From NCBI RefSeq assembly GCF_023015805.1, contig NZ_JALKBA010000020.1:1-64000 (forward strand): a stretch of DNA of 64,000 bases, read 5' to 3'. Under the pieces are notes generated by a model, which ran no database searches, was not told the DNA's origin, and saw nothing but the letters and a program-made list of their open reading frames with translations. Below, piece after piece: positions 7,767 to 52,195 of the stretch; positions within the stretch are counted from its first letter, which is position 1; the number at the start of each line of letters is the position of its first letter. The position numbers and the translations under genes were made by a program. This DNA is from Cellulophaga sp. F20128. GTDB lineage: Bacteria; Bacteroidota; Bacteroidia; Flavobacteriales; Flavobacteriaceae.

Positions 7767-8207
7767 TTATTCCTTCACACGTACCCAAGTTTGGGTTCTA
7801 TAGATAAAAGCCAAATAACCACGCACTTTTAATTGGTCTTCATCTTCTGGATCTAACCATATTTTACATCGAAAGGTCATCGCTTGCTCAGGATCAAAAA
7901 GATGTTTTCCCTTGTATTCGTTAGCATCAGTTTTAACCGCGGCAGTAATAATTTCCATTCCTTCCACGGGTTTGTCTTTGCGATGATCATCACATTTTTC
8001 ACAAACCGCATCCTCTTTCCCTTCTTCTAAGATTTCCAAGACTCTACCAAATAGCAAGCCTTCTTTTTCATAGACTTCAATGATTGCCTTTTCTACTCCA
8101 TTTCTATCATCTATAGTTTTCCATTTTCCAAAAACAGACTGAGACAGGCTAACTTGGGCTATACACAAAATAACACCTAAACTTATAAAACTCTTAAACT
8201 TCATCAT
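7767..8207 (-). CDS. DUF2147 family exported protein
   Basis: A 146-residue protein with an N-terminal signal peptide (hydrophobic to about residue 20, ending SLSQS). The mature part has the DUF2147 pattern: GKWKTIDDRNG, a central CEKCDD pair, and the C-terminal YRTQTWVRV. It is likely periplasmic. The family has no established biochemical role. It overlaps the 3' end of yihY by 14 bases and ends 9 bases before priA begins, so it belongs to the same transcript. Confidence 0.88.
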   Translation of the reverse strand: MMKFKSFISLGVILCIAQVSLSQSVFGKWKTIDDRNGVEKAIIEVYEKEGLLFGRVLEILEEGKEDAVCEKCDDHRKDKPVEGMEIITAAVKTDANEYKGKHLFDPEQAMTFRCKIWLDPEDEDQLKVRGYLAFIYRTQTWVRVKE

Positions 8208-9180
8208 TCTTTATCATTTTTTTCTTTAGAGAATTTAAGGTAGCGTTTAACTCAAACCCTAACAATAAAATATTTGCATTCAACCAAATGTAAACCATCA
8301 AAATTAATAATCCACTTAAAGCGCCGTACAATTCATTATATCTTGCAAATTTATCAACATACACTCCAAACAAATAAGAGGTTAACAAAAATAAAATGGT
8401 AGTCATTAAGGATCCTGCTGAAAAGAATTTTGCCTTTCGGCCTTCTGCCGTACCAAAGTAATAGAGAATGGAAATGGCCAAATAGGACAAAAATGTAAAG
8501 TAGATAATCTTTGCTATTTGCGTAGTCCATAAATCTGTTGTCTCCAGTTCAGTTCCAAAATAAGCTTGGGTGGTATCTGATATGTTTTCTATCACATAAA
8601 TCTCAAAATACATAAATACAATTGTACTTACAATAATTAAAATAGAAAGCAAAATACCTACCATTACCGCGTATAAATATTGTCTAAAGAAACTTCTGCT
8701 AAGGCTTACGTGGAAGGAGTTTTCAAATCCGCTAAAAATAGCATTAACCCCATTTGCAATTAAAAATATGGATATTAAAAAGGATGAAGACAGCCAACCA
8801 CTGCGTTTCTGACTCATTATTTCCCCATATATTTCATCAAAGAAATAATCGTTTATAGCATTTGGCAATACATATTCTAAATAGGCAATAAACTCTGTAC
8901 TTAAGTTTGTATCCGGATTTCCAGAATCTACAAAGGGTATTAAAAACGGTATTAAAGTAACCAAGAAAATTAGCAAAGGAAACAAGGCCATAAACAAGCT
9001 AAAAGCAATGGCACTAGCACGTGTAGACAGGGTGCCTTTTATGATACCATACACATACATCTCTAGCAAATCATACAAAGACAACCCTTCAAAAGCTGGT
9101 AGTTTTATCTTTTTCAATATGAGAACCACCCAATTTATTACCGGTATTTTCGCTAATTTATCTTCTACTTCTGCCGACAT
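8194..9180 (-). CDS. YihY/BrkB family inner-membrane protein
   Basis: A 328-residue integral membrane protein with about six hydrophobic segments. It has the family features STRASAIAFSLFMALFPLL in the first segment and the later LYGALSGLLILMVYIWL. Older annotation as ribonuclease BN is known to be wrong for this family, and its role is unsettled. The start codon touches the nadC stop by one base, and the 3' end overlaps the DUF2147 gene, which points to translational coupling. Confidence 0.92.
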   Translation of the reverse strand: MSAEVEDKLAKIPVINWVVLILKKIKLPAFEGLSLYDLLEMYVYGIIKGTLSTRASAIAFSLFMALFPLLIFLVTLIPFLIPFVDSGNPDTNLSTEFIAYLEYVLPNAINDYFFDEIYGEIMSQKRSGWLSSSFLISIFLIANGVNAIFSGFENSFHVSLSRSFFRQYLYAVMVGILLSILIIVSTIVFMYFEIYVIENISDTTQAYFGTELETTDLWTTQIAKIIYFTFLSYLAISILYYFGTAEGRKAKFFSAGSLMTTILFLLTSYLFGVYVDKFARYNELYGALSGLLILMVYIWLNANILLLGFELNATLNSLKKKMIKNDEV

Positions 9181-10679: not shown

Positions 10680-12572
10680 CTAGTACAACACTCTAAACTT
10701 AATGGTATTCTCTACCTTTTTAAGTGCTTTGATGACTTCTTTATTGTATTCTTTATCTAAATCTGTAATGACATAGCCTACCGAATTATCGGTAGAAAGA
10801 AACTGTCCGGTTATGTTCATTTCATACTCGGCCAATACCTTGTTTATTTTAGCCATAATACCCGGTACGTTTTTGTGTATGTGTAAAAAACGGTGTGCAT
10901 TTGTTTGTCTAGGCAAACGAATACTCGGGAAATTTACGGCATCTACGGTATTTCCAGAATTGATATAGTCCATTATTTTATTGGGAACAAAATCTGCAAT
11001 ATCGCGTTGCGCTTCCTCAGTACTACCACCAACATGTGGTGTTAGTATCACATTTTCTAAGCCTTGCAATTCTGAGAAAAATTCACCGTTGCTTCGTGGC
11101 TCTTCTGGATATACATCTACTGCTGCACCACCAATTTTACCGCTTTTTAATGCCGCTACCAAGGCTGGTATATCTACCACAAAACCACGTGAAAGGTTTA
11201 TAAGCATAGCGCCATTTTTCATTTGCTTTATTTCGCGCTCTCCAATAAAGTTTTTATTCACTTTATTATCATCAATATGCAGGGTTACTACATCAGAAAC
11301 ATTAAGCAAGTCTTCTAGGGTATTGCATTTAATAGCATTACCAAGAGCCAACTGATCATTAACATCGTAATAATAAACACGCATACCTATGGCTTCGGCC
11401 AAAACAGACAACTGTTTCCCGATATTACCATAACCAACAATCCCTAAATTTTTACCTCGTACCTCCCTAGAATTAATGGCGGTTTTATTCCATTGTCCCT
11501 TGTGAATTTCCTGACTTCTAGGAAAAACATTACGCATTAAGGTTATTATTTCTCCAATGGCTAACTCTACCACCGACCGTGTATTACTGTACGGTGCGTT
11601 AAATACCACAACCCCTCTATTTTTAGCTGCTTCTAAATCTATTTGGGTAGTACCGATACAAAATGCACCAACTACCAATAATTTATCTGCCGCCTCCAAT
11701 ACTTTTTTGGTAACCTGAGTTTTAGAACGAATTCCTAAAACATGCACTCCTTTTAATTTTTCTATTAATTCTTCTTCAGGCAGACTGTGCTTTACCAATT
11801 CTACTGAAAACCCATCCTGAGAAAGATTATCAAACGCTGCAGGATGCACATTTTCTAACAGTAAAATCTTAATCCTGTTTTTAGGGTATGATATTTTTCG
11901 CGGTAAGTCGTTTACAAATAAAAATTCATCCATATTTGGTGTTACATGATCTGCATTTGTGGTTGCCTTGGCTCTACTCACATTTTCTGTATAAGCAAAG
12001 AATTTATCCGCAATTCCAGCTTCACGCATAACGTAATCACTATATCCATCACCTATCACTTGAACCTCGCCTTCCAAATTTAAATTTTTCAGACATTCGA
12101 TCTTTCCATTGTGGGAAGCCAAAACATTACCCTCGTCAAAACCTATAATTGTTCCTTCATCATCAAAGGTAAAGGTATTGGCGTATACTTTACTAGAAGG
12201 AATATCATATTCTTTTACTATAGGATCTATAAACTCTTTAAATCCGCACGAAATCACATAGATATCATCAGAAAATTTCTGAAAAAATTCCTTGTTTGAC
12301 TCAATCGATTTAGAAATTTTATCCCGTAAAACTTCAACCAATTGTGTTAAATCACTTTTATTTGCATTCAATAATTTTATGCGCCGCTCCAAGGATTCTG
12401 TAAACGAAATATCACCATCTATTCCTAAATTGGTGATTTCCTGTATTTCCTTAATTATTTCTTCCTTGTTAGACTTTCCCTGCAAAGTTATTTCGGCTAA
12501 AACATCCAAAGCCTCCACTCTTGTTAAAGTACTATCAAAATCAAAAACATATTTTCTCCCTTGGTCTACCAT
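10680..12572 (-). CDS. HAD phosphatase / D-3-phosphoglycerate dehydrogenase / ACT fusion
   Basis: A 630-residue fusion that seems to join the first and third steps of serine synthesis. Residues 1-220 are a SerB-like HAD phosphatase: DFDSTLT (DxDxT nucleophile), ISCG, the lysine in NGKIECLK, and GDGYSDYV. Residues about 235-550 are SerA: NAD-binding GIVGYGNIGKQL, catalytic Arg in LSRGF, Glu in YPEEP and His in LTPHVGGST. The last 75 residues are an ACT domain (HRFLHIHKNVPGIMAKIN), the usual site of serine feedback. SerC is not part of the protein and is not nearby. I believe the architecture is widespread in Flavobacteriia, but I know of no detailed study. Confidence 0.93.
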   Translation of the reverse strand: MVDQGRKYVFDFDSTLTRVEALDVLAEITLQGKSNKEEIIKEIQEITNLGIDGDISFTESLERRIKLLNANKSDLTQLVEVLRDKISKSIESNKEFFQKFSDDIYVISCGFKEFIDPIVKEYDIPSSKVYANTFTFDDEGTIIGFDEGNVLASHNGKIECLKNLNLEGEVQVIGDGYSDYVMREAGIADKFFAYTENVSRAKATTNADHVTPNMDEFLFVNDLPRKISYPKNRIKILLLENVHPAAFDNLSQDGFSVELVKHSLPEEELIEKLKGVHVLGIRSKTQVTKKVLEAADKLLVVGAFCIGTTQIDLEAAKNRGVVVFNAPYSNTRSVVELAIGEIITLMRNVFPRSQEIHKGQWNKTAINSREVRGKNLGIVGYGNIGKQLSVLAEAIGMRVYYYDVNDQLALGNAIKCNTLEDLLNVSDVVTLHIDDNKVNKNFIGEREIKQMKNGAMLINLSRGFVVDIPALVAALKSGKIGGAAVDVYPEEPRSNGEFFSELQGLENVILTPHVGGSTEEAQRDIADFVPNKIMDYINSGNTVDAVNFPSIRLPRQTNAHRFLHIHKNVPGIMAKINKVLAEYEMNITGQFLSTDNSVGYVITDLDKEYNKEVIKALKKVENTIKFRVLY

Positions 12573-48115: not shown

Positions 48116-48751
48116 ATGAATTACTATAAAGAAACATTTGAAACATGGAATAAAATTGCCAAGGTGTACCAAGATAAGTTTATGGACTTAGACTTGTACA
48201 ATGATACCTATGACCACTTTAGTACGCTTATTGGAAAACCGAACGCTTCGGTCTTAGAAATTGGTTGTGGACCAGGAAACATAACCAAAAAGTTGTTGAC
48301 CAAAAATCCAAATTTAAAGCTACTGGGTATTGATGTTTCTGAAAATATGATAACGCTTGCGAAACAGAATAATCCAACGGCAGAATTTAGGCAAATGGAC
48401 TGTAGAGATCTCGGTAATTTACAAAACAAATTTGATGCTATTGTTTGCGGATTTTGCATACCTTATTTATCAGAAACTGACTGCGCAACCTTAATTCAAA
48501 ACTGCAATAAATTACTTCATAGAGATGGCGTACTCTATTTAAGTTTTGTCGCTGGAAATTATAAGCAATCCGGCTTTATTTCCGGAAGTAGTGGTGATCG
48601 AGTCTATTTTTATTATCACCCACTGCAATCTATAGAAAAAGCACTGTCTATCAATTCTTTCACCATAAAAGAAAATAGCACTAAAACCTATCTAAAAAGT
48701 GATTCTACAACGGAAACACACACCATTCTACTGTCTAAAAAAAACAACTAA
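48116..48751 (+). CDS. class I SAM-dependent methyltransferase
   Basis: A 211-residue methyltransferase. Motif I is SVLEIGCGPGNITKKL near residues 46-60, motif II holds LLGIDVSENMI, and the post-I region has FRQMDCRDLG. The substrate domain is small, so a small-molecule or peptide substrate is plausible. It lies 80 bases upstream of the RimK-type gene on the same strand, with its own upstream region, so it may be the first gene of this block or independent of it. Confidence 0.85.
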   Translation: MNYYKETFETWNKIAKVYQDKFMDLDLYNDTYDHFSTLIGKPNASVLEIGCGPGNITKKLLTKNPNLKLLGIDVSENMITLAKQNNPTAEFRQMDCRDLGNLQNKFDAIVCGFCIPYLSETDCATLIQNCNKLLHRDGVLYLSFVAGNYKQSGFISGSSGDRVYFYYHPLQSIEKALSINSFTIKENSTKTYLKSDSTTETHTILLSKKNN

Positions 48752-48831
48752 CAACGAACAATATCTATGTAAAAGCTATTCAAAAAAAATATAAATTTAC
48801 TCTAAATTTACATCCTTATAAAGTGTCATAA

Positions 48832-50280
48832 ATGCAAAAATATATTGTTGTCAATCAACCTGAAAAATGGAATTTTTCGATTGAGAATATTACTGTTATT
48901 TCTTCTCAAGAATACCTAACAAATCCAAAATTTTCAGTACTTAAAAAAGCTAGGATTTTTAATCTCTGTAAAGATTATTCGTATCAATCTAAAGGTTATT
49001 ATGTATCACTCTTAGCAGAAGCTAGAGGTCATTTGGCCATTCCCACCGTCACCAACATTGTAGATTTAAAAACTTTAAAAATTGTTCGCATAGTCTCTGA
49101 TGAGTTTGATGATATTATTCAACAAAGTTTAAAAAATATAAAATCTCAAGAGTTTATATTAAGTATCTATTTTGGTCAAAACGTTGCTCAAAAATACAAA
49201 GAACTAAGCGCCTTGTTTTACAGACATTTTCAAATGCCCTTTTTACGGGTGAAATTTAACTTTAACACCAAATGGAACATTCAAAGTATTAAGGCTATTT
49301 CTGAAAATGAAATTCCTGATGAACATTTAGAAAGTGTGCATTTATTTGCCAATGAATATTTTTCTAAAAAACGCTATGACACACCAAAGTTAACCACTTC
49401 AGATTTTGATTTAGCTATTTTGGTTAACCCTAAAGATCCTGCTCCTCCAAGCAATTCTAAAGCCTTAAAGAAGTTTATAGAAATTGCAGAAAAAATGAAT
49501 ATTTATGCGGAGATAATTGAACCTAAAGATTTATCGCGATTGTCTTCATTTGACGCCCTTTTTATTCGTCAAAGTACAGAAGTGAACAATGAGGCTTATG
49601 CCTTTGCTCGTAAAGCACAACAAGAAGGTATTGCCCTTGTAGATTATCCGGACGCTATTTTAAAATGTTGCAACAAAGTTTATATGGCTGAAGCCTTGCA
49701 AAATGCCAATATAGAAACACCCAAAACTATTATTGTACATAAAGACAACAGAAATAAAGTCCTAGAGTTTACAGGCCTCCCGTGCGTCTTAAAGGCACCA
49801 GATTCTACCTTTTCATTTGGCGTTAAAAAAGCGAAGAACATAGAGGAATTCAATACTTTAGTCAACAACATGTTGAAAGAATCTGATTTAATTATTGCTC
49901 AAGAATTTTGTCCTTCAGATTATGATTGGCGCATTGGTATTTTAGATGGCAAACCTTTATTTGCCTGCAAATATTATATGGCAAAAGGGCATTGGCAAAT
50001 TTACAACTGGAATGCCAAGAAAAAAAACGACCAAGATGGAAATGCCGATTGTTTGCCCATAGAGAAAGTCCCAAAAAAAGTATTGAGTATGGCTATAAAA
50101 TCTGCCAAAATTATGGGCAAAGGTTTGTATGGGATAGACATAAAAGTGGTAAATAACCAACCCATGGTTATAGAAATTAACGACAACCCCAATATAGATT
50201 TTGGTGTTGAGGATTTGTATTATGGCGACCTTATTTACACTGAAATTTTAACGGCACTAAAAACACGATTAGCACAATAA
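48832..50280 (+). CDS. RimK-family ATP-grasp ligase with RLAN-type N-domain
   Basis: A 482-residue ligase. Residues about 1-190 form a RimK-like N-terminal domain (the family listed as RLAN), starting VVNQPEKWNFSIENIT. The ATP-grasp domain at about 280-480 has CVLKAPDSTFSFGVKKA, IIAQEFCPSDYDWRIGILDG and the Mg/ATP site GLYGIDIKVV followed by MVIEINDNPNID. The reaction would be ATP-dependent amide-bond formation with an amino acid such as glutamate. It is followed after 2 bases by the GCS2-type gene, which makes one operon of three enzymes. The acceptor is unknown. Confidence 0.9.
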   Translation: MQKYIVVNQPEKWNFSIENITVISSQEYLTNPKFSVLKKARIFNLCKDYSYQSKGYYVSLLAEARGHLAIPTVTNIVDLKTLKIVRIVSDEFDDIIQQSLKNIKSQEFILSIYFGQNVAQKYKELSALFYRHFQMPFLRVKFNFNTKWNIQSIKAISENEIPDEHLESVHLFANEYFSKKRYDTPKLTTSDFDLAILVNPKDPAPPSNSKALKKFIEIAEKMNIYAEIIEPKDLSRLSSFDALFIRQSTEVNNEAYAFARKAQQEGIALVDYPDAILKCCNKVYMAEALQNANIETPKTIIVHKDNRNKVLEFTGLPCVLKAPDSTFSFGVKKAKNIEEFNTLVNNMLKESDLIIAQEFCPSDYDWRIGILDGKPLFACKYYMAKGHWQIYNWNAKKKNDQDGNADCLPIEKVPKKVLSMAIKSAKIMGKGLYGIDIKVVNNQPMVIEINDNPNIDFGVEDLYYGDLIYTEILTALKTRLAQ

Positions 50281-50282
50281 TA

Positions 50283-51509
50283 ATGAATAAAAAATATCAT
50301 TTGTTTGAAGTTTACGGCATAGAATTAGAATACATGCTGATACATACCGATAATTTTAAGGTTGCTCCTATTGTTGATGCGTTATTAACCAAAAAGAATG
50401 GTAGCTTAACTGCAGATATAAACAATGGAGAAATTGCTTGGAGCAATGAATTAGTGGCGCATGTGGTTGAATTAAAAACCAATGGGCCTACAAAAAACCT
50501 CAATAGATTATCTAAATTATTTCATACTAATATAAAGGAAATAAACGCCCTTTTAAAACCATTAAACACTCAGTTATTGGCTACAGCTGCACATCCATTG
50601 ATGAACCCTGTTACAGATACGGTGCTATGGAAACATTCTTACAGTGAAGTTTATGAATTATACAATCGTATTTTTAACTGTAAAGGACACGGTTGGAGCA
50701 ATGTACAAAGCACCCATATCAACTTGCCTTTTTACGATGACGATGAGTTTGAAAAACTACACGCCGCCGTTAGAATTGTATTGCCTTTAATTCCTGGTTT
50801 GTGTGCAAGCTCCCCAATTTTGGAAGGAAAAAGCACAGGGTTTAAAGATACACGTTTAGAATATTACAAGACCAACCAAAAGGAAATTCCAGAAATGACA
50901 GGTTTGGTAATACCCGAACGCGTTTTTTCGAAGTTAGAATATTACTCTATCATTTTTGAACCCATTAACAAAGCTATAAAACCAAGGGATACTCACAATA
51001 TTTTAGACCATCATTTTCTAAATTCCCGAGGTGCCATTGCTCGTTTTGACAGAAATGCCATTGAAATTCGCTTGGTAGATATTCAAGAATGTCCCAAGGC
51101 TGATATTGCCATTTGTGTATTATTGATTGAAACTTTAAAGCTTTTCGTACATAAAAAATTAGCTACGCTAGAGGTTCAAAAATCATGGGTGAAGGAAGAT
51201 TTATTTCAAATTTTAAATCCGATTATCAAGGATGCTGAAATGCATACGGTGACCAATGTGGCTTACCTTGAACTATTTCAATTAAACACTCCTACAACGG
51301 TCCAAAATATTTGGAAACACCTATATCAACTCGTAAAACCAAACATCCATAAATCACATCACAGCGCCATTGAAACCATTTTAAATGAAGGCACTTTAGC
51401 AACGAGACTTTTAAGAGCTATAGCGGACGACTTTTCAGAAAAAAACATAAAGGCAGTATATTCTAAAATAGCCAAATGCTTACAAGAAAACAAACTTTTT
51501 AAACCATGA
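50283..51509 (+). CDS. glutamate-cysteine ligase family protein (GCS2)
   Basis: A 408-residue carboxylate-amine ligase of the GCS2 family. Early FEVYGIELEYMLI gives the Glu-x-Glu metal-binding signature. WSNVQSTHINLPF and FDRNAIEIRLVDIQECPKAD are the active-site strands of the family. It probably joins glutamate, or another amino acid, to an amine with ATP. Classical GshA of E. coli belongs to a different branch. It overlaps the amidohydrolase gene by 4 bases and follows the RimK-type gene by 2 bases, so all three act together. Confidence 0.9.
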   Translation: MNKKYHLFEVYGIELEYMLIHTDNFKVAPIVDALLTKKNGSLTADINNGEIAWSNELVAHVVELKTNGPTKNLNRLSKLFHTNIKEINALLKPLNTQLLATAAHPLMNPVTDTVLWKHSYSEVYELYNRIFNCKGHGWSNVQSTHINLPFYDDDEFEKLHAAVRIVLPLIPGLCASSPILEGKSTGFKDTRLEYYKTNQKEIPEMTGLVIPERVFSKLEYYSIIFEPINKAIKPRDTHNILDHHFLNSRGAIARFDRNAIEIRLVDIQECPKADIAICVLLIETLKLFVHKKLATLEVQKSWVKEDLFQILNPIIKDAEMHTVTNVAYLELFQLNTPTTVQNIWKHLYQLVKPNIHKSHHSAIETILNEGTLATRLLRAIADDFSEKNIKAVYSKIAKCLQENKLFKP

Positions 51510-52195
51510 CACTCCTACTCACTTGTGAACACGGAGGCAATCATATCCCAAATAATTACCGCTCTTATTTTAAAAATAAGGATGCCGTATTAAATTCACA
51601 TCGTGGTTATGATCTTGGTGCTTTACATCTTTTTAGTGTGCTAAAGGAAATTGCATCCTATTCAAAATACAGTACAACAAGCCGATTGGTGATTGAATTG
51701 AATCGTTCTCTACACCATAAACATTTATTTTCTGCATATACGAAGTCATTATCTAATACAGCAAAAGAACAATTAATAAAGGAGTACTATACCAGGTATC
51801 GGGAAGAGGTAACAGCCGAAATAAAAAAAAGAATCACAGCCCAGGAATTTGTACTTCACATCGCCGTTCATTCCTTTACTCCTATCTTAAATGGTACGGA
51901 AAGAAATTGTGATATTGGATTATTATTTGATTCGACCAAACCCAACGAAAAGGACTTTTGCCGTCACTTTAAACAAGAAATTAAAAAATTAGACGCCACC
52001 ATTAATGTACGCTACAATTACCCATATCTAGGTAAGTCAGACGGGTTCCCTACTTTTTTAAGAAAATTATTTCCAAAAAACTATATCGGTATTGAACTAG
52101 AAGTAAATCAGAAATTTTCTAATCAAAACAAATTTCCAAACCACTTGAATGAAACACTTTTAAACGCCTTAAAAGAAGTGTTATTCCTTAAGTAA
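51506..52195 (+). CDS. N-formylglutamate amidohydrolase-family protein
   Basis: A 229-residue zinc-type amidohydrolase. The family motifs are LLLTCEHGGNHIP at the N-terminus, SHRGYDLGALHLF near 30-42, RLVIELNRSLHHKHLF near 61-76 and LHIAVHSFTPILNG near 112-125. Characterised members cleave N-formylglutamate in histidine breakdown. No hut genes are present here, so in this operon it more likely removes or edits an acyl or amide group on the RimK/GCS2 product. The start overlaps the GCS2 gene by 4 bases. Confidence 0.88.
   Translation: MTLLLTCEHGGNHIPNNYRSYFKNKDAVLNSHRGYDLGALHLFSVLKEIASYSKYSTTSRLVIELNRSLHHKHLFSAYTKSLSNTAKEQLIKEYYTRYREEVTAEIKKRITAQEFVLHIAVHSFTPILNGTERNCDIGLLFDSTKPNEKDFCRHFKQEIKKLDATINVRYNYPYLGKSDGFPTFLRKLFPKNYIGIELEVNQKFSNQNKFPNHLNETLLNALKEVLFLK

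Follow-up and report, generated by a model that had tools for sequence, protein, structure and literature searches.

A conserved gene cassette of two amide ligases and an amide hydrolase in Cellulophaga sp. F20128, with a possible role in gamma-glutamyl-type conjugation

Two ligases predicted to form amide bonds and one hydrolase predicted to cleave them are encoded side by side in Cellulophaga sp. F20128 (Flavobacteriaceae), which raises the question of what they could make, or take apart, together. The locus lies in the window, i.e. the whole stretch of 64,000 nucleotides (nt) of contig NZ_JALKBA010000020.1 analysed here. It encodes, on the forward strand, a RimK-like ATP-grasp amide ligase with an N-terminal RLAN domain (RLAN-RimK; 482 amino acids, aa; 48832–50280), a GCS2-family carboxylate-amine ligase (408 aa; 50283–51509) and an amide hydrolase of the FGase (N-formylglutamate amidohydrolase) family (229 aa; 51506–52195). 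According to the coordinates of their open reading frames (ORFs), RLAN-RimK and GCS2 are separated by 2 nt while GCS2 and FGase overlap by 4 nt. The preliminary description of this DNA, made from the letters alone, had seen three genes overlapping or nearly touching and had named the same enzyme types; both points are borne out. What it had not seen is a fourth gene, encoding a C39-like cysteine peptidase, which lies directly 5' of RLAN-RimK and leads the set in most lineages beyond Flavobacteriaceae. The window thus holds the C39-less form of a conserved cassette.

Gene order and co-occurrence

Gene order was compared in the best 80 of 584 loci by RimK similarity, from named genomes, and in wide stretches of 23 genomes of the class that carry RLAN-RimK besides the window's genome. 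The ORFs of these loci were clustered, and profiles of the four recurring families were then run on six-frame translations, because genes in GC-rich loci can escape an ORF call based on length; for the same reason, clusters of neighbouring genes are under-counted. Removal of the duplicates L086, L088, L089 and L091 left 100 distinct loci, 8 of which are flagged as possibly cut at contig ends. As the loci were picked by RimK similarity, the counts given below are not natural frequencies.

All 100 distinct loci keep to one order, namely C39-like peptidase, RLAN-RimK, GCS2 and FGase, a recurrence that far exceeds chance, and the three-gene order of the window, whose conservation in relatives had been left for checking, is nowhere broken. 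The complete four-gene form is found in 38 loci, RLAN-RimK, GCS2 and FGase without the peptidase in 22, and the peptidase, RLAN-RimK and GCS2 without FGase in 21. The other forms are RLAN-RimK alone (9 loci), with GCS2 only (6), with the peptidase only (3) or with FGase only (1). The packing is equally recurrent, the gaps between profile matches being of 60 nt at most in 55/62 cases between the peptidase and RLAN-RimK, 83/87 between RLAN-RimK and GCS2, and 57/60 between GCS2 and FGase. With phylum labels assigned by hand, the four-gene form is present in 10 phyla, and the peptidase, RLAN-RimK and GCS2, with or without FGase, in 14.

Co-occurrence was then assessed at the level of whole genomes. 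At the thresholds used, 24 carriers of RLAN-RimK were found among 395 genomes drawn from the class and 35 among 296 drawn from the phylum. From these, 40 Bacteroidota genomes with a cassette-type RLAN-RimK were compared with 40 without, the latter picked by hand (17 of the same family, 2 of the same order, 16 of the same class and 5 of the same phylum). The carrier set omits 3 of the 24 class carriers and 12 of the 31 new phylum carriers, namely 13 with long frames (649–730 aa), taken as GNAT fusions, and 2 with partial matches (G513 and G533). GCS2 of the cassette type is present in 39/40 carriers vs 0/40 non-carriers, the C39-like peptidase in 35/40 vs 0/40, and FGase of the cassette type in 27/40 vs 0/40; Fisher values for these differences are only a guide, the genomes being related and hence not independent. 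Each of the 39 GCS2 and 35 peptidase matches adjoins RLAN-RimK in cassette order, and FGase is right behind GCS2 in 26 of the 27 genomes that have it, the remaining one (G251, without GCS2) having FGase after RLAN-RimK. One genome, G367, holds an extra FGase copy away from the cassette. The carriers without the peptidase are the window's genome (G000), two genomes of the same family (G549 and G576), G068 and G251.

This strict order and strict co-occurrence make it very likely that RLAN-RimK, GCS2 and FGase act in one pathway. Pairwise distances between the proteins also correlate in a mirror-tree comparison (r 0.65–0.85), but the correlation falls to 0.19–0.47 among distant pairs, so that co-evolution is not claimed beyond co-occurrence.

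Families, catalytic residues and fold

Each of the three family names is backed by Pfam. RLAN-RimK matches RLAN (5.2e-48) and RimK (3.9e-8), with a Dala-type ATP-grasp match behind the RLAN domain, GCS2 matches PF04107 (3.7e-28) and FGase matches PF05013 (1.4e-18; 68.3 bits vs a curated cut-off of 28.9). All three are divergent members of their families, since the NCBIfam cut-offs are widely missed or unmatched: RLAN-RimK scores 66.0 vs 143.4 bits for TIGR00768 (rimK_fam) and 30.7 vs 331 for NF007764, GCS2 scores 51.8 vs 176.4 for the YbdK family, and FGase matches none of the NCBIfam models at 0.001.

Residues of the catalytic type are conserved in each protein. In RLAN-RimK, the ATP/Mg-type residues K282, K321, R367, D436, E448 and N450 are identical in 100/100 aligned RimK rows and E358 is kept in 88/100. 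In FGase, the closest solved structure of which is 2odf (Atu2144; E 1.3e-34), E8, H9, H32, D36, H118 and H122 are kept in 59/59 aligned rows, and E197 in each of the 58 rows that have a residue at that position. GCS2 likewise keeps its catalytic-type residues among aligned relatives. By structure comparison, the GCS2 model best matches YbdK and plant glutamate-cysteine ligase, and, as modelled, the protein has the glutamate-cysteine-ligase fold; its likeness to the YbdK-type ligases 1r8g and 1tt4 is one of fold, with an identity of 13–15%. In relatives, the C39-like peptidase matches Pfam Peptidase_C39_2 in the four proteins scanned out of four, and Q13, C19, H178 and D195, a Gln/Cys/His/Asp set that we take to be the C39 active site, are present in 60/60 near-full-length rows.

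A possible product and its rivals

What could such a set of enzymes do? The preliminary description had suggested assembly and editing of a small amide-linked product or a peptide tag, which is as yet a conjecture: gene organisation, co-occurrence, conservation and the fold of the GCS2 model are observed, but the substrates, the sequence of the reactions and the parts played by the hydrolases are inferred. The best reading, to which we would give nearly an even chance, is that the cassette encodes a cytosolic module making and dismantling a small gamma-glutamyl-type amide conjugate. GCS2 would use ATP to activate glutamate at its gamma-carboxyl and join it to the amine of a compound X, giving gamma-Glu-X, and RLAN-RimK would extend that molecule, at a carboxylate, by another amino acid or amine, the two acting in turn like the two ATP-dependent ligases of glutathione. 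FGase would be a metal hydrolase cutting an amide of the N-acyl-glutamate type, whereby the conjugate would be trimmed or recycled. Where present, the C39-like protein could act as a papain-like peptidase trimming or transferring part of the conjugate. A small metabolite is a more probable identity for X than a gene-encoded peptide, because the flanks of the cassette show no recurring precursor gene. A cytosolic location is suggested for the module, no signal peptide having been noticed in the cassette proteins by eye, with no predictor run.

A few neighbouring genes also point to gamma-glutamyl chemistry. An EgtC-like class-II amidohydrolase gene stands beside the cassette in 3/100 loci from three phyla: L036 of Bacteroidota (7806–8681), L117 of Acidobacteriota (11433–12491) and L123 of Gammaproteobacteria (1262–2119). 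In L036 this gene heads a five-gene operon with a 4-nt overlap at every junction, and in L123 an ORF of 83 aa without Pfam match lies between it and the cassette. In ergothioneine synthesis, EgtC takes off gamma-glutamyl groups and EgtA is a ligase of the GCS2 family; the likeness to the cassette lies in this ligase and in the EgtC-like neighbour. No EgtB- or EgtD-like gene was found among the 15 cassette neighbours covered by a Pfam scan.

Several observations weigh against a gamma-glutamyl conjugate module. The EgtC-like genes, although EgtC is their best NCBIfam match, reach 178 to 204 bits, below the cut-off of 218.65, and such a neighbour is found in the three loci only and in 0/19 further Bacteroidota loci. 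FGase is absent in 13/40 carriers and the peptidase in 5/40, so that neither is essential. Neither the fold nor the family of GCS2 fixes the acyl donor, and the wider fold is also that of Dop and PafA. Finally, GNAT-linked RLAN-RimK proteins occur without GCS2, FGase or the peptidase, which implies that the partner of RLAN-RimK is not always gamma-glutamyl chemistry.

The main rival, although an unlikely one, is reversible protein tagging, in which RLAN-RimK and GCS2 would modify a cellular protein with glutamate or with a short gamma-glutamyl tail, and the hydrolases would remove the tag. It has a precedent in the action of RimK and RimB on ribosomal protein S6 (RpsF; PMC12239564), where a RimK-type ATP-grasp ligase is similarly linked to a hydrolase. 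The cassette differs from that system by the RLAN domain, by the GCS2 partner and by FGase and the C39-like peptidase standing in place of a retropepsin, and its RLAN-RimK scores below the RimK cut-offs given above.

It is quite improbable that the cassette belongs to the synthesis of glutathione or of another low-molecular-weight thiol, with GCS2 as GshA and RLAN-RimK as GshB. The pair of reaction types is alike, the fold of GCS2 is GshA-like, and a strong GshB-like gene (E < 1e-50) is present in 5/40 carriers, including the window's genome, where GCS2 may supply the distant GshB-like protein. Such a gene is however also present in 6/40 non-carriers, and in the window's genome it sits in a separate operon together with an FGase and a MATCAP gene. 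Compared with known glutathione synthesis, by GshA and GshB or by the bifunctional GshF, the cassette has RLAN-RimK as its ATP-grasp protein, which is not of the GshB type, no GshB-type synthetase within it, and up to two hydrolases in the unit. Furthermore, BshC, of the bacillithiol pathway, is present in 39/40 carriers and 40/40 non-carriers (79/80 genomes) and, this gene being nearly universal, the cassette fills no missing-thiol role.

Just as improbable is a route to a ribosomally made, graspetide-like peptide (RiPP), in which the C39-like peptidase would cut the leader and the ligases would cross-link the core. Among the protein families associated with graspetide-type ATP-grasp loci, a C39 peptidase together with its transporter ranks first (PMC8939145). 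Against this, no small ORF in the 700-nt flanks of the 100 loci is conserved beyond close kin (precursors encoded elsewhere were not sought), the largest group comprising 5 loci of related Flavobacteriaceae; a small precursor ORF, whose recurrence the preliminary description had considered, is therefore rejected as a member of the cassette. Nor was a transporter found among the scanned members of the five recurring neighbour clusters, and Flavobacteriaceae loci have no adjacent C39 gene, with none in the whole genome either in the three genomes searched.

Least credible is an accidental presence of FGase as the N-formylglutamate step of histidine degradation: the family name in Pfam suggests it, the HutH family (PF00221) is present in 39/40 carriers (the search covered carriers only), and the window's genome has a hut cluster without FTCD (an arginase-type HutG was outside the search), but among the 80 genomes compared cassette-type FGase was found in carriers only and stands behind GCS2 in all 26 that have both, and its presence does not appear to track the absence of FTCD, a gene present in 13/27 carriers with FGase and 7/13 without. 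The hut cluster, with urocanase, a PF00221 HutH-family lyase and an amidohydrolase read as HutI side by side, is moreover on contig C19 (L146), while the cassette FGase is beside GCS2 on C27. Thiol synthesis and histidine degradation are both unlikely roles for the cassette. The preliminary statement that no hut or glutathione genes explain the operon thus stands for the neighbourhood; for the genome it does not, given the unlinked hut cluster and the GshB-like gene elsewhere.

Neighbouring genes, distribution and known systems

A class-I methyltransferase gene (211 aa; 48116–48751, forward strand; Pfam Methyltransf_25 3e-20) lies 80 nt upstream of RLAN-RimK, as had been described. It was tried as a cassette member and rejected, since none of the ORFs in the other loci examined is a blastp partner of its product (1e-8, over half the length of the shorter sequence). 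It is judged to be outside the system, and a start at 48116, as first described, seems too far upstream. A scan for promoters and terminators gave a signal near chance level.

Other observations concern the surroundings of RLAN-RimK and FGase genes in individual genomes. On contig C21 of the window's genome, a second ligase/hydrolase operon (L145:6091–9111) encodes, with successive overlaps, a GshB-like ATP-grasp protein, an FGase-family protein and a homologue of MATCAP, the microtubule-associated tyrosine carboxypeptidase family. Breznakibacter xylanolyticus (L030/L088) has RLAN-RimK and FGase without GCS2, the sole such case in 100 loci, and a Crp-like regulator 5' of them. Directly 3' of FGase, a gene of the saccharopine-dehydrogenase family is found in two related Bacteroidota loci (L040:12810–14153 and L041:5590–6939). 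At the same place, the Pontibacter loci L079, L080, L081 and L083 encode a protein of a single cluster (Pmp3 domain in L079, the one scanned), followed in L080, L081 and L083 by a protein of a DnaJ cluster (DnaJ in L081, the one scanned).

The 22 Flavobacteriaceae loci, including that of the window, form one clade with a support of 100 in a RimK tree that was built quickly and midpoint-rooted for drawing only. An adjacent C39 gene is found in 0/22 of them, one (L069) having only 716 nt upstream, while the closest row outside the clade, a metagenome-assembled genome of Desulfobulbaceae, has the peptidase. The simplest account is that the C39 gene was lost once in this clade. A search of the window's genome with the C39 profile, which matched 35 other carriers, gave no match. 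RLAN-RimK is present in 39/299 Flavobacteriaceae genomes. Judged from the length of the frame, it is a cassette-type protein in 36, of which G000, G549 and G576 were covered by the whole-genome C39 search; the one genome of the same genus listed has no RLAN-RimK. The distribution in the family is thus patchy, through loss or transfer. Plasmid records contain GCS2 in 1 case and RimK in 11. Carriage by viruses or phages was considered and rejected at the thresholds used, as none of 33 GCS2-pattern matches in viral contigs was confirmed and a RimK search found 0 phage records at 1e-20.

The GNAT-linked RLAN-RimK proteins form a separate clade. The GNAT acetyltransferase is fused to RLAN-RimK in L044, L046, L050, L111 and L115, i.e. 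in all five long-frame loci scanned, and is encoded by a separate neighbouring gene in L110, where a gene of the PLP-dependent decarboxylase family follows.

Operons of this general kind have already been predicted. Iyer et al., in 2009 (Mol Biosyst 5:1636), reportedly linked ATP-grasp and GCS2-type ligases to peptidases and predicted that they make peptides or tags; the likeness is to the general kind of operon. This work is cited in PMC4431377 and PMC12239564. No description of the exact gene set was found among the literature matches listed, which, being limited to open-licence papers, is weak evidence of absence. A more specific proposal, possible but rather doubtful, is that the cassette makes an unrecorded gamma-glutamyl peptide, cofactor-like or protective, with built-in turnover by its hydrolases, scattered over at least 10 phyla, the Flavobacteriaceae version being a streamlined one that would have lost C39.

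Whatever its nature, a conserved product is implied by the strict joint inheritance of two amide ligases with up to two hydrolases in at least 10 phyla. With its gene boundaries and fixed order in hand, and a C39-less version occurring naturally in Flavobacteriaceae, the cassette provides ready material for the discovery of this product, and a prediction from genome context thereby becomes testable.

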